Of a stretch of DNA of 64,000 nt, positions 44,001 to 50,036 are shown piece by piece (the first letter of the stretch is position 1; each line of letters opens with the position of its first letter). Source of the DNA: Streptomyces buecherae (lineage in GTDB: Bacteria; Actinomycetota; Actinomycetes; Streptomycetales; Streptomycetaceae); the NCBI RefSeq assembly GCF_014295035.1, contig NZ_CP060404.1, positions 1,282,001 through 1,346,000 of the forward strand, written 5' to 3'. Under the pieces are notes generated by a model. That model saw only the letters and a list, made by a program, of their open reading frames with translations. It did no database searches and had not been told where the DNA came from. The position numbers and the translations under genes are program-made.

Positions 44001-44127
44001 GCCACTCCCCTTACCCATCAGTAACGTCCCTACGGCGGGGACTCTAGCGCGCATATGTCCACCGCGGCAGTGTTGGCTTATCCACAGGCCACCACGGGCC
44101 GTGGCCAGGCCAGTAATGTCAGCGCTC

Positions 44128-45111
44128 ATGGAGCAGAGGCACCTCGGCCGTACGGGCCTGCGCGTATCCCGGATCGGGCTCGGCACGCTCACCTGGGGCC
44201 GGGACACCGACGAGCACGATGCGGCGGACCAGCTCAAGACGTTCTGGGACGCGGGCGGCACGCTCGTGGACACCGCCGACGTGTACGCCGACGGCAGCGC
44301 CGAGTACCTGCTGGGCCAGTTGCTCGACGGCCTGGTGCCGCGCCGCGACCTGCTCATCGCGACCAAGGCGGGCAGCGTGCCCGATCCGGACCGCCGCTTC
44401 GACGGCTCCCGTGGCCACCTGCTGGCGGCCCTCGACGCCTCGCTCGAACGCCTGGGGACCGACTACGTGGACCTGTGGCAGATCCACGCGTACGACGCGA
44501 CGACCCCCCTCGAGGAGACCCTGCAGGCCCTGGACATCGCGGTCAGCAGCGGCCGGGCGCGCTACGCCGGGGTGTCCAACTTCTGCGGCTGGCAGCTCGC
44601 CAAGGCGGCCACCTGGCAACTCGCGTCGGCGGGTCCGCGGACCCGGCTGGCCAGCACGCAGATGGAGTACTCGCTGCTCCAGCGCGGCATCGAGCGCGAG
44701 GTGCTGCCCGCCGCCCTGGACCTCGGCATCGGGCTGCTGCCGTCCTCGCCGCTGGGCCGGGGTGTGCTGACGGGCAAGTACCGGCACGCGACGCCGGCGG
44801 ACTCGCGGGGCGCGTCGGAGCACATGGCGCCGTTCGTCGCCCCGTATCTGGACGACGCGGCCAGCCGGATCGTCGACGCGGTCTCGATCGCCGCCGACGG
44901 GCTGGCCGCCACCGCGCTCCAGGTGGCCCTCGCCTGGGTGCGGGACCGCCCGGGAGTGGCCGCCCCGATCGTCGGCGCGCGCACCGCGCAGCAGCTCAGG
45001 GCGGCTTTGTCAGTGGAGGCGCTTACGCTTCCAGACGAGATTCGCCAGGCGCTGGACGACGTGTCAGCGCCCGTGCACCGCTATCCCGATCACGACTGGA
45101 GCACGCTGTGA
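44128..45111 (+). CDS. aldo/keto reductase
   Basis: 327 residues, an NADPH-dependent TIM-barrel oxidoreductase. The catalytic tetrad is visible: Asp and Tyr in LVDTADVYADG, Lys in IATKAGSVPD and His in DLWQIHAYD. The coenzyme site is near APIVGARTAQQL. ATG 44128 is the likely start (MEQRHLGRTGLRVSRIGLG); the ribosome-binding site is weak. Its stop overlaps the start of the next gene as GTGA, so the two are translationally coupled. The physiological substrate is unknown. Confidence 0.94.
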   Translation: MEQRHLGRTGLRVSRIGLGTLTWGRDTDEHDAADQLKTFWDAGGTLVDTADVYADGSAEYLLGQLLDGLVPRRDLLIATKAGSVPDPDRRFDGSRGHLLAALDASLERLGTDYVDLWQIHAYDATTPLEETLQALDIAVSSGRARYAGVSNFCGWQLAKAATWQLASAGPRTRLASTQMEYSLLQRGIEREVLPAALDLGIGLLPSSPLGRGVLTGKYRHATPADSRGASEHMAPFVAPYLDDAASRIVDAVSIAADGLAATALQVALAWVRDRPGVAAPIVGARTAQQLRAALSVEALTLPDEIRQALDDVSAPVHRYPDHDWSTL

Positions 45112-47765
45112 GTTCCGACCGCCCCGCGGGCGAGGCCGCTTCCCCCACCACGGGAGACCCCGCACCGCGCGAGGACGCCACCGCTCCGGCCCCCTCGCCG
45201 GACCACCCCGAGGCCCCCGCGGACCCGGCCCCCGCGACGGCTCCGCGAGGTCAGGCCGAGCGCCCCGGCGAGCCCGAGGCGGGCGAGGCCACGGCCGACC
45301 CGGACACCACGGCGGACCAGCACCCGGCACCGCCGGCCGAGGCGGCGCGCGAGGCGGAGCCCACGAGCGAGACCGGCGCGCCGCCACGTGAGGCGGAGCC
45401 GACGAGCGAGACCGACGCGCAACCGCGCGAGGCGGGCGAGGCGGGCCCGGAGGCGGAATCCGCCGCCGAGACCGCGGGCAGCGCGCGGGTCGCGGCGCCG
45501 AGCGCGGGCGAGGCCGGCGCCGGTGGGTCCACCGGCGGCGGGAAGCGGTCGGCCGCGGCCGAGGCGCTGGCCGCCGCGGTGCGCGCCGTCGAGCGGGGCG
45601 AGGCCGACGCCGCCTCGTTCTTCACCAGCGCGCGAGGCAGGTCGACGGCGGCCCGACCCGGCGGCGCGCGACCGGCCTCCCCCGGGCACGCCACGCCGAC
45701 CCCGGGCGACCCGCAGGCGGCCACCCCGCACGCCGCCGGTCCCGCGGGTCCGGCCGGCGGCGCCCCGACGGCCCCGTTGGGTGGTGCCGGTTCGGGCGGA
45801 GCGCCTGCTCCCGGGCCGGCCCCGACCGCCACGGCGGGGGCGCCGGCCGCTGCCGGACCCGGAGCCGGCCCGTCCGGTGTCGGCTCACCGGCCGGTGGAG
45901 CCGGTGGTGCGCGGGTGCCGTCGGCGGGCGGGCCGGCGGAGCTGGACGAGATTCGCCAGGTGCTGGCCGCCGGCGGCGCGCCACCGCACCTCGCCGAACA
46001 GGTCGTACGCGCCCTGGGCGAGGGGGCCGGCCCCGTCCTGCGGGACGATCCGTGGCAGTTGCTCGCCGTCCCCGGGGTGCGCCCCGAGCAGGCGGACGGC
46101 TTCGCGCGGGCCCTGCTCGGCCCGGACTGCGGCCCGGGCGACGAGCGCCGCTCCCGGGCGCTGGTGACCTGGCTGTTGGAGCGCGCGGCGCTCGAAGGCC
46201 ACACGGCCCGCGAGTCGGCCACGCTGCGCGACGCGCTCGCCCAGCACGCCGTGCCGGACCCGGACGAGGCCCTGCGCGACGCCGTGGCGGAGGGCGTGGT
46301 GCTGGTCTTCCAGGACGCCCTGGAGACCCCGGGGGCGGCCCCGGCCGCCGAGGACAATGAGGCCGAACAGCCTGTCCGCGTGCTGCTGGGCCTCGACCGG
46401 TACGCACTGGCCGAGGAGAGCCTGGCCGACGGCCTGGCCCGAGTGGTCAACACCTTCGAACCGGACGCCGCCGCCGACTCCGCGCCCGGCGCGCGGCCCG
46501 AGACCGACGCGGCCCCCGAGAGCGACGCGGCTCGCGAGAGCGGTGCGGAGCCCGAGGCGGAGGCGGCCGGCCCGGTTGCCGACTGGGAGGCGCTGGCCGA
46601 CGCCGCCCCCTCGCCGTCGGCCGCCGAGCTGGTCAGGGCCGCCGCGGGGCACGGGCTCGTGACGCACAGCGGGGGTGAGAGCGCCCGGGCCGAGGCCGTG
46701 GCCCTGGTCGCCGCCGCGCACGCGCGCGGCCTGCGCGCCTACGCCGCCGCGCACACGGACGACGGCCGCCGGCGGCTCGGCGCGGCGCTGGCGGACAGCG
46801 GCCTGCCCGCCGCGCTGGCGGTCACGGTCGCCGGGCTGCTCACCGGGGCCGAGGGGCCCGGGCGGGACGCGGACGGCGCCTTCCGGCTCGACCTGCTCGC
46901 CGTCCTCGACGCTCCCCAGCTCGACGTGGAGGCCGCCGCGGCGCTGGTCGAGTCACTGCCGGACGGCGTGCGGCTGGTGTTCAGCGGCGATCCGGGGGTC
47001 CTGTGGTCGGCGGGCGCCGGCCGGGTCTTCGCCGACGTGGTGGCCGCCCGCTCCTGCCCGCAGGTGGTCTCCCGCACGCCCGACCCCGGCCCGATCGGCG
47101 AGCTGGTCTCCGGCATCGGGATCGGCGAGCTCTCGCAGGTGGAGGCGCCGGGCAAGGAGGTGGTGATCGTGCCCGTGCGGGACGCGGGCGACGCCGTGCA
47201 CCGCACCGTGCAGTTGGTCGCGGACTCGGTGCCACGGGCGATCGGCGTGCCCGTACCCGACATCCAGGTCATCACCGTCGGGCACGGCGGCGCGGTCGGT
47301 ACCCGGGCGCTCAACGCCGCCCTCAAGGAGCGCCTCAACCCCGGCCCCGGCCGGTTCGGCGGCTTCGACCCGGGCGACCGGGTCGCGTACGCGGTGGCCC
47401 CGGGGCGCACCGTGACGGGCACGGTGACCGCGGCCGAGCCCGACGGGCTGCGCCTCGACTGCGGGGGCGAGGACGTGCTCGTGCCCCGGGCCCGGGTCGC
47501 CGACGCCCTGCGGCCCGGTTGGGCGGTCACGGCCCACCAGGCGGCCGGCCGGCGCTGGCCCGCGACCGTCGTCGTCCTCCCCGGGGACGCGGGCCCGCTG
47601 CTCACCCGGGCCTGGGTCTACACGGCGTTCAGCCGTGGCGAGCGGCACCTGTCCGTGGTCCACGGCGCCGGCCCTGCCCTGCCGCACGCGGTGGCCGAGG
47701 TCCCGGCCGCCGAGCGTACGACGCGCCTGCGGGCCCTGCTGCGGGCCCAGAACGCGACGGCCTGA
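45108..47765 (+). CDS. RecD2-like helix-hairpin-helix protein with degenerate helicase motifs
   Basis: 885 residues from the GTG at 45108, which overlaps the aldo/keto reductase stop. Residues 1-~275 are a Pro/Ala/Glu/Gly-rich disordered region. A helix-hairpin-helix region follows at ~280-360 (ELDEIRQVLAAGGAPPHLAE, DDPWQLLAVPGVRPEQADGF), as in RecD2. The C-terminal half is collinear with RecD2 superfamily 1 helicases. Where Walker A should be it reads THSGGESARAEA (~518-529), without the GKT. Walker B reads LLAVLDAPQLD without the Asp-Glu pair. Motif III-like SGDPGVLWSAGAGRVFADV (~624), motif V-like VTAHQAAGRRWPATVVVLP (~806) and motif VI-like VYTAFSRGERHLSVVH (~837) remain. It therefore probably cannot hydrolyse ATP. 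Confidence 0.82.
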   Translation: MSSDRPAGEAASPTTGDPAPREDATAPAPSPDHPEAPADPAPATAPRGQAERPGEPEAGEATADPDTTADQHPAPPAEAAREAEPTSETGAPPREAEPTSETDAQPREAGEAGPEAESAAETAGSARVAAPSAGEAGAGGSTGGGKRSAAAEALAAAVRAVERGEADAASFFTSARGRSTAARPGGARPASPGHATPTPGDPQAATPHAAGPAGPAGGAPTAPLGGAGSGGAPAPGPAPTATAGAPAAAGPGAGPSGVGSPAGGAGGARVPSAGGPAELDEIRQVLAAGGAPPHLAEQVVRALGEGAGPVLRDDPWQLLAVPGVRPEQADGFARALLGPDCGPGDERRSRALVTWLLERAALEGHTARESATLRDALAQHAVPDPDEALRDAVAEGVVLVFQDALETPGAAPAAEDNEAEQPVRVLLGLDRYALAEESLADGLARVVNTFEPDAAADSAPGARPETDAAPESDAARESGAEPEAEAAGPVADWEALADAAPSPSAAELVRAAAGHGLVTHSGGESARAEAVALVAAAHARGLRAYAAAHTDDGRRRLGAALADSGLPAALAVTVAGLLTGAEGPGRDADGAFRLDLLAVLDAPQLDVEAAAALVESLPDGVRLVFSGDPGVLWSAGAGRVFADVVAARSCPQVVSRTPDPGPIGELVSGIGIGELSQVEAPGKEVVIVPVRDAGDAVHRTVQLVADSVPRAIGVPVPDIQVITVGHGGAVGTRALNAALKERLNPGPGRFGGFDPGDRVAYAVAPGRTVTGTVTAAEPDGLRLDCGGEDVLVPRARVADALRPGWAVTAHQAAGRRWPATVVVLPGDAGPLLTRAWVYTAFSRGERHLSVVHGAGPALPHAVAEVPAAERTTRLRALLRAQNATA

Positions 47766-47935: not shown

Positions 47936-48613
47936 TCAGGGCTCGGGGTCGATGAGCTCCAGGTCGTCGTCGGCGTCGTCGGGCTCCTCGTCGAAGACCG
48001 CGCTCACGTCGAAGCGGCACACGATCCGCTGCGGGTCCGCGTGGTCGAACGGCGCCGCCAGCCACTCCCCCGGGTCGGCGGGCTCGTCCGCGGCGGCCAC
48101 CCACAGCGTCGAATCGCCCTCCTCAAGGCCGAACTCCTTGTGCCGGGAGGCGATTTCATCGGGTTCGTACTCGCCGAAGAGAACGCCGAGCGCGGCGTGC
48201 ACGCTGCTGCCGGCGGCCGCCGCCGCGCCCTTGCCGGGCAGGCCGTTGACGGACGCCCCGTCCGGGTCGAGGTCGGCGATCCGCTGGGCCTGCGAGAGCA
48301 GCCGCTGCGGCTCCGCCACCGCGTAGTCCCGGCGGATCAGCACGCTGAGGGCGCTCGGTTCCTCCGGCCCGTCGTACGCGGGCAGGGAGTCGTCGCCGGG
48401 GATCTCGAAGGGCGTGACTTCGTCGTACGCGTCGTAGAGGAGTTCGTCATAGGTCTCGGCAGCCGCGGCCAGTTCGTTGAACGCGGCGTAGACGGCCGGG
48501 TCGTCCCCGCCGACCCGCCGCTCGACGGCATCGAGGTGCCGGTCCAGTGCGGCTTTGACCGCTTCGGCGGCGGCGCGTACCTCGGCAGCGGATGGCTGCG
48601 CAGCATCAGACAT
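47936..48613 (-). CDS. conserved hypothetical acidic protein
   Basis: 225 residues, strongly acidic. The N-terminal half is helical (AAEVRAAAEAVKAALDRHLD, AFNELAAAAETYDELLYDAY). The middle repeats short helical segments around SALSVLIRRDYAVAEPQRLL. The C-terminus is beta-rich and ends in a run of Asp/Glu (FDEEPDDADDDLELIDPEP). No signal or membrane segment is present, so it is cytoplasmic. I recognise no function. The ATG at 48613 is preferred over an upstream start at 48652 because family-like sequence begins at MSDAAQPSAAEV. It is divergent from the DUF5703 gene by 47 nt. Confidence 0.75.
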   Translation of the reverse strand: MSDAAQPSAAEVRAAAEAVKAALDRHLDAVERRVGGDDPAVYAAFNELAAAAETYDELLYDAYDEVTPFEIPGDDSLPAYDGPEEPSALSVLIRRDYAVAEPQRLLSQAQRIADLDPDGASVNGLPGKGAAAAAGSSVHAALGVLFGEYEPDEIASRHKEFGLEEGDSTLWVAAADEPADPGEWLAAPFDHADPQRIVCRFDVSAVFDEEPDDADDDLELIDPEP

Positions 48614-48660
48614 AGTGCAGACGCTATCCGTACCAGGCCAGTTCCCGCACAATAGATGCG

Positions 48661-48974: not shown

Positions 48975-49895
48975 CTAGGCGGTGCGGGTGGTGCGGGCCC
49001 TGCGGTAGAGCACCGTGCCGGCGAGCAGCAGACCGGCGCTGGCGGGCAGGGCGATGGCCAGGGTCCCGGCGCCCGTCTCGGCGAGTTGCTCGGCGGTCTC
49101 GGCGACCACCCGCTCGACGGGTCCGGCGGAGCGCTCGGAGCGGGACGCGGGCAGTTCCTCGCCACGCTCCATGTGCGTCTCAGTCCCCGACGGCGTCTCG
49201 ACCCGGGGTGCCGGCGGTTGCTCGGCGCGCGGCTTCTCCGTGGGCCCCGGCTTGTCCCCGGGCTCGGGCCGCGGTTCGGGCTTCGGCTGCGGCTTCGGCG
49301 ACGTCACCTCCTCGCGCTCACGCTCGCGCGTGGGCGGCTGGTGCGGCTCCTCGTGGGAGGCGGGGCCGGTCACGTTGCCGCACTTGTTGCGGACGGCCGG
49401 GTTCAGCAGTCCGACGACGTTGACGGTGTTGCCGCACACGTTCGCCGGCACGTGCACCGGCACCTGGACGTTGTTGCCCGAGCCGACGCCGGGCGAGCCG
49501 TGCGCCCCGCCGACCGCCTGGGCTCCCCCGCCGGAGCGGGTGGTCTCGCGGCGCTCACCCGAGGTGCCCTTCCCCGCGGGCTTGGGCTGCCGAGCTCCGG
49601 TGGCCTTGCCGGCGTCGCCCGCCCGGCCCGCGTTGCTCTTGGCGGCGTGGCCGTCCACGTTGGCGCACCTGTTGCCGACGGCCGGGTTGAGCGCACCCAC
49701 GACGTCGACGGTGTTGCCGCACGCGTTGATCGGGACGTGCACTGGTACCTGCACGTTGTTGCCCGACAGGACGCCCGGTGAGTTCGAACTGGAGCCGTGG
49801 GCGGCCGAGTCCGCGTGTGCGTAGCCGCTTGCCACGGCGAGCACGCCGCCGGCTGCGGCCATGGTGATCAGGCCCTTCTTCGCGACCTGTCGCAT
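48975..49895 (-). CDS. chpC: long chaplin with two chaplin domains and sortase signal
   Basis: 306 residues. A signal peptide (1-~28, ending AHADS) is followed by chaplin domain 1 at ~38-79 (Cys59, Cys77) and domain 2 at ~133-178, each containing GNNVQVPVHVP..CGNTV.V..LNPAV..C. A Pro/Lys/Glu-rich wall-spanning region follows. The sorting signal is LAETG (271-275) with a membrane helix and RRAR tail, the LAXTG form used by class E sortases. It should be attached to peptidoglycan and help coat aerial hyphae with the short chaplins. The ATG at 49895 was chosen because it gives the signal peptide directly. The short chaplin gene lies just upstream. Confidence 0.93.
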   Translation of the reverse strand: MRQVAKKGLITMAAAGGVLAVASGYAHADSAAHGSSSNSPGVLSGNNVQVPVHVPINACGNTVDVVGALNPAVGNRCANVDGHAAKSNAGRAGDAGKATGARQPKPAGKGTSGERRETTRSGGGAQAVGGAHGSPGVGSGNNVQVPVHVPANVCGNTVNVVGLLNPAVRNKCGNVTGPASHEEPHQPPTREREREEVTSPKPQPKPEPRPEPGDKPGPTEKPRAEQPPAPRVETPSGTETHMERGEELPASRSERSAGPVERVVAETAEQLAETGAGTLAIALPASAGLLLAGTVLYRRARTTRTA

Positions 49896-50036
49896 AGGTT
49901 TGGTTCCCCTGATTCTTGCCGTCCGGAATACGCGAGTGCGCGACCGCGCCCGCGCCAATGCCCAGCGGCCCCGGAGTGCATGGCGCGCACTCCGGGGCCG
50001 CCCGGGTCTCACCCCCTACGGGAGTGAGTCATCACG

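Follow-up and report, generated by a model that had tools for sequence, protein, structure and literature searches.

Pseudohelicases of the superfamily 1 (SF1) type known so far are mostly domains within bigger machines. TraI has a vestigial helicase domain with an inactive RecD2-like superfamily 1B (SF1B) fold, which binds single-stranded DNA (ssDNA) (PMC5422253). AddB and RecC contain inactivated SF1 helicase domains that read Chi in helicase-nuclease complexes (PMC4824097). PriA of Deinococcus radiodurans is a pseudohelicase whose Walker motifs were lost family-wide in one bacterial lineage, with the protein being retained (PMC4504706). The gene described here, pseudo-RecD2, comes from a 64,000-nucleotide stretch of the Streptomyces buecherae genome (contig NZ_CP060404.1, positions 1,282,001 to 1,346,000, forward strand; hereafter the window). 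It lies at 45108-47765 on the plus strand as a single intact open reading frame with a GTG start, and encodes 885 amino acids. The window protein is best read as an ancient non-catalytic RecD2 paralogue that has been kept as an ATP-independent adaptor, a reading to which we give a probability of roughly 0.55.

The window protein resembles RecD2 (TIGR01448; D. radiodurans structures 3E1S, 3GP8, and 3GPL) in its HHH_RecD2 domain, an SF1B core with the 2A/2B arrangement, the motif order, and the motif VI arginine. In contrast, it lacks Walker A, Walker B, and the Q-motif glutamine, and reaches 99 bits against TIGR01448, the NCBI RecD2 model, where the curated cut-off is 500. The HHH_RecD2 domain covers residues 278-366 (45939-46205, plus strand; Pfam E 2.1e-10, 40.8 bits against a cut-off of 27), and a UvrD_C_2 match falls slightly below its Pfam cut-off. 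Only HHH and helicase-type domains were found in the 885 residues, with no relaxase or active-helicase partner in the chain and no nuclease domain. From domain content alone, the protein passes for an ordinary HHH or RecD2-like protein. Because a normal RecD2 (859 amino acids, about 845-846 bits against TIGR01448, G000:C1:5943323-5945491) is encoded elsewhere in the genome, the window protein is a paralogue. It differs from this true RecD2 in having no N-terminal OB fold and in having a long tail with a motif of its own.

Among the other systems, TraI shares the RecD2-like SF1B helicase fold, which is inactive in TraI and inactive-looking here, but in TraI the domain shares its chain with a relaxase and an active helicase (PMC5422253), whereas pseudo-RecD2 is a separate protein. 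AddB and RecC share an SF1 helicase fold without motifs and, if the adaptor reading holds, a non-motor task; they are UvrD-like superfamily 1A (SF1A) proteins (PMC4824097), unlike the RecD2-like SF1B window protein. D. radiodurans PriA belongs to another helicase superfamily and is the ordinary PriA itself, whereas pseudo-RecD2 stands beside a working RecD2. The intact actinomycete RecD2 paralogues (L127-L132, L139, L144, L145, L150-L157, and L161) belong to the same clade, are similar in size, and share the neighbourhood, but differ in that every ATPase motif is intact.

The AlphaFold model of the window protein, built with 89 homologues, has a mean predicted local distance difference test score (pLDDT) of 93.4 and a predicted template modelling score (pTM) of 0.91. 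It comprises a predicted SF1B helicase fold. The best PDB matches are the D. radiodurans RecD2 entries 3GP8, 3GPL, and 3E1S (Z 34-36 over 490-528 residues), with a Foldseek E of 2.7e-29 and a VIA-align Z of 36. RecD of RecBCD comes next, and TraI lower. The original prediction, made from the letters of the DNA, had set this comparison as a check, and the match is to RecD2 and not to an unrelated fold. Its statements that the gene is intact, long, and coupled to an aldo/keto reductase gene, and that the HHH domain is kept, agree with the reading frame, a GTGA overlap, and the Pfam match.

The ATP site has lost its defining residues. The former Walker A lies at residues 520-530 (HSGGESARAEA; 46665-46697, plus strand), where the Gly-Lys-Ser/Thr is gone and GGPGTGKS of the intact relatives has become GG--ESAR. 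In the model, the first core strand is joined to its helix by 2 loop residues (GG), against 5 in the model of an intact paralogue, which is only of medium quality (pLDDT 76). The pattern G4GK[ST] occurs in 0 of 148 dead-clade cores (Streptomycetaceae and family f17) and in 18 of 18 intact paralogues; these counts come from two overlapping collections, and some species are possibly counted twice. An alternative P-loop elsewhere in the core was sought, and none was found. The former Walker B lies at residues 597-605 (LAVLDAPQL; 46896-46922, plus strand), and the gap-free alignment of VVVDEASMLDVE with LAVLDAPQLDVE places Leu-Asp in the two catalytic columns normally held by Asp-Glu. Across 81 Streptomyces sequences, Walker A takes an H[ST]GG[ED]-type form without GK[ST], and Walker B reads VLDAPQLD, a new form that is highly conserved. 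Compared to the intact paralogues, the Q-motif glutamine, the motif Ia GR and lysine, and the motif IV glutamine are also lost, as is the histidine of the Thr-His pair in domain 1A. With motif V included, the losses cover three elements of the active site (Q motif, Walker A, and Walker B) and the residues of motifs Ia, IV, and V that couple the motor.

Other parts of the helicase are retained. These include HHH residues, the motif III GDP...S..G, and many residues of domains 2A and 2B. Of the 242 columns in which the intact paralogues never vary, 80 are still conserved at over 80% in each of the two dead groups. The motif III remnant (residues 625-640; 46980-47027, plus strand) keeps GDP and lacks the glutamine. 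The motif V remnant (residues 805-817; 47520-47558, plus strand) keeps T808, H810, G814, and W817, and lacks its R, Q, S, and E; T808 and H810 are retained in Streptomycetaceae. Motif VI (residues 836-849; 47613-47654, plus strand) keeps the arginine R843, which is present in all sampled Streptomycetaceae and in 63% of f17 copies, and is lost in family f112. The original prediction read the P-loop correctly as HSGGESAR, and the loss is real, with a shortened loop. Its Asp-Ala reading of Walker B was out of register by one residue, although the catalytic aspartate is gone in either register, and its claim that motifs III, V, and VI are kept holds for the residues just named as retained and fails for the motif III glutamine and the four lost motif V residues.

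The gene is found nearly throughout the family. With a profile search (E<=0.001), 247 of 249 Streptomycetaceae genomes yield a hit, across all 17 genera; on closer inspection about 4 of the 249 have only matches at or below the level of canonical RecD2, and these are mostly highly fragmented assemblies. Relatives scoring above canonical RecD2 were met only in Actinomycetes families. Some have perfect motifs (GGPGTGKS, DEAS, QLPS, and HRAQGSE), in f7, f12, f14, f48, and f18, the last of which we take to be Frankiaceae. Degenerate motifs occur in f17, which we take to be probably Streptosporangiaceae in the wide sense, in f8, and in f111 and f112, the other two families of the window's order. 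Dead copies are thus present throughout Streptomycetaceae, in two sister families, and in f17. Two copies, L178 (G186) and L158 (G462), are split over two frames and may be sequencing errors or true pseudogenes.

Trees were built with the five motif regions removed, on 71 rows and then on 74 with the sister families added. The paralogue family splits from canonical RecD2 with 100/100 support, and all degenerate rows form one clade, again with 100/100 support, inside the intact paralogue family. Independent losses, in which either dead group is placed with intact copies, were rejected by the approximately unbiased (AU) test (p 2.6e-6), with the caution that the tree has long branches. Intermediates with GPG followed by D or E occur in f17 and in early Streptomycetaceae; they are chemically alike and fit one loss. 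The original prediction had taken homologues with an intact GKT as the sign of a recent local loss. Such homologues exist outside the clade only, in Frankia-type genomes and other actinomycete families, and a recent local loss is rejected because every clade homologue examined in the alignment that it had also proposed shares the motif loss. Despite these intact orthologues, the tree indicates one ancient event. At the level of sequence, the ATP-site residues were lost once, before Streptomycetales and f17 separated.

Pseudo-RecD2 is retained under purifying selection. The median ratio of nonsynonymous to synonymous rates (dN/dS), another of the checks proposed earlier, is 0.21 (NG86 method, 104 close pairs with dS <0.8), the exact value being rough owing to high G+C. 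The most conserved surface candidate lies in domain 2A/2B at residues 684-760 (47157-47387, plus strand), where R699, Q702, D706, S707, R710, N736, K740, N744, D754, and D757 are kept in both dead groups. Residues 720-760 are nearly invariant and rank in the top 0.5% of windows of that length, whereas the former Walker B is in the top 5% and the former Walker A is about average. This ranking indicates a shift of constraint away from the phosphate site and towards domain 2A/2B.

The N-terminal tail comprises residues 1-276 (45108-45935, plus strand), is rich in alanine (77), proline (46), and glycine (44), is predicted to be disordered on the basis of this composition, and varies widely in length among species. 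Within it, residues 146-172 (KRSAAAEALAAAVRAVERGEADAASFF; 45543-45623, plus strand) form a conserved motif of about 25-27 residues with the invariant pattern A..L..AVRAVE.G. Of the 109 Streptomyces copies whose tail is long enough, 106 contain the AVRAVE.G core, usually with a phenylalanine 8-10 residues later. A profile of the motif gives a single hit per genome in 102 of 104 Streptomyces genomes; this hit falls in the pseudo-RecD2 gene wherever compared, including the window, and lies upstream of the core where checked. The profile had no match in 15 sampled sister-family genomes. The motif has no significant Pfam or PDB match and was rejected as a known domain; its best other match in its own genome (E 0.02) was unconvincing on inspection. 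It resembles a docking helix, and may serve as one. The disordered N-terminus of 275 residues in the original prediction therefore stands as a long low-complexity tail, of 276 residues, but not as a featureless one, given a motif conserved across the genus.

Judged by its sequence, the window protein is a pseudohelicase, since it is helicase-derived, has lost its catalytic motifs, and is encoded by a gene under selection. It presumably lacks ATPase activity. The earlier claim of a retained non-catalytic pseudohelicase is well supported by the clade-wide loss, the RecD2 fold, the near-universal presence, and the dN/dS of about 0.21. The adaptor reading would add the following history. A duplicate of actinomycete RecD2, still intact in Frankia-type genomes and some other families, would have lost ATP binding in a single event that predates the split between Streptomycetales and f17, and would then have been kept as an ATP-independent adaptor. 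Its RecD2-shaped core may use the HHH domain and the conserved 2A/2B face to hold one target, either a nucleic-acid structure or a repair or replication protein. The flexible tail of the Streptomyces copies would present its conserved, putatively amphipathic motif and recruit a second partner. By analogy, inactive helicase folds that are kept as binding modules elsewhere lend some support to this reading (PMC5422253, PMC4824097, PMC4504706). It is possible, and is suggested here only tentatively, that the protein is an undescribed genome-maintenance factor, near-universal in Streptomycetales and older than the f17 split, in which a stand-alone dead SF1B core and a tail motif recruit a partner without ATP.

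Several observations weigh against the adaptor reading. The core is acidic, with a net charge of about -30 (-29 to -31) and 2 lysines in the window protein, compared to +3 to -11 for canonical RecD2, and this argues against general DNA binding. Because of this charge, protein docking is likelier than the general DNA-binding scaffold first suggested, although local basic residues (R347, R348, R699, R710, and K740) are invariant or almost so. The genomic link of the gene is to an aldo/keto reductase and not to a repair gene, and literature searches found no publication on it. In f17, all copies lack the motif V histidine, the tail motif was not seen, and the paralogue has apparently disappeared from about 15 of 40 sampled genomes, where canonical RecD2 alone is seen (for example G398, G264, and G447), so that some lineages can do without the function.

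Among the alternatives, a holder or scanner of ssDNA survives best, although it is rather doubtful. In such a protein the former tracking groove would bind ssDNA independently of ATP, in the manner of the vestigial domain of TraI or the Chi readers AddB and RecC (PMC5422253, PMC4824097). The RecD2 fold is in line with this, and T808 and H810, kept in Streptomycetaceae, are the equivalents of the ssDNA-contacting threonine and histidine of TraI (PMC5422253). The charge of the core, the loss of the motif Ia GR and lysine and of the domain 1A histidine, and the absence of the motif V histidine from f17 speak against it.

It is improbable that the protein regulates the active RecD2 of its genome as a partner, or serves as a decoy for it. 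Most genomes with a dead copy also carry canonical RecD2. However, G570 is a single contig, rated 100% complete, and has a dead copy with no canonical RecD2, so that canonical RecD2 is no universal partner and dependence on it as a general rule is rejected. Likewise, G261 and G601 have only the intact paralogue, with canonical RecD2 not found; in G470 it was also not found, a result that comes from weak matches only (L124, L125, L127, and L130 are listed for G570, G470, G261, and G601). A gap of only about 22-29 kb separates canonical RecD2 from the intact paralogue in several Frankia-type genomes, which may be a vestige of the original duplication (G353 C1:4590339/4619049, G571 C5:48861/77810, G508 C102:70680/99620, and G432 C153:54532/32017).

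A function shared with the neighbouring aldo/keto reductase and lying outside of DNA metabolism is about equally hard to credit. The reductase gene (44116-45111, plus strand; Pfam E 1e-63) overlaps pseudo-RecD2, whose GTG start shares 4 nucleotides (GTGA) with its stop codon. Since 61 of 80 Streptomyces loci have exactly this overlap, the start of pseudo-RecD2 is fixed. The reductase is upstream on the same strand at 73 of the 74 Streptomyces loci where it was detected. The pairing recurs in most families, beside intact copies (f14, f48, f7, and f12) and dead copies (f17), which suggests that the partnership is older than the motif loss. In contrast, Frankia-type genomes have the intact paralogue without the reductase, in some f17 genomes 2.4-3.5 kb separate the two genes, and a common operon often means no common function. 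Intact paralogues share with the dead copies, in varying combinations, the aldo/keto reductase, an F420-dependent LLM oxidoreductase, a phosphomutase, an SCO1664-like gene, and mshC as neighbours; the last three of these are the ones shared by Frankia-type genomes. This common neighbourhood supports positional orthology of the intact and dead copies. Downstream in the window, a convergent gene (47936-48652, minus strand) is present at 80 of 80 Streptomyces loci and has no significant Pfam or NCBIfam match. Just past it lies the gene of a Chaplin-like cell-surface protein (48975-50012, minus strand), which contains a pair of similar repeats and has a LAETG-type sorting signal at its C-terminus.

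An unconventional nucleotide-dependent enzyme, able to bind ATP or some other nucleotide despite having no P-loop, is very improbable: in its favour, Streptomycetaceae have an invariant motif VI arginine and a former Walker B re-fixed as VLDAPQLD, but the Walker A loop is shortened, the Q-motif glutamine and catalytic aspartate are lost, and the motif VI arginine is itself lost in f112 and part of f17. A decaying gene without function, for which the variation of motifs between deep lineages and the split or missing copies in a few genomes might be cited, is largely refuted by the dN/dS of about 0.21, near-universal retention, the near-invariant stretch of about 40 residues, and intact frames.

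Nearly every Streptomyces thus has a free-standing pseudohelicase, while intact orthologues survive in sister families, often in the same neighbourhood. This represents a natural experiment on what RecD2 does without ATP. Pseudo-RecD2 is a strong candidate for an unrecognised core gene of the main antibiotic-producing genus.

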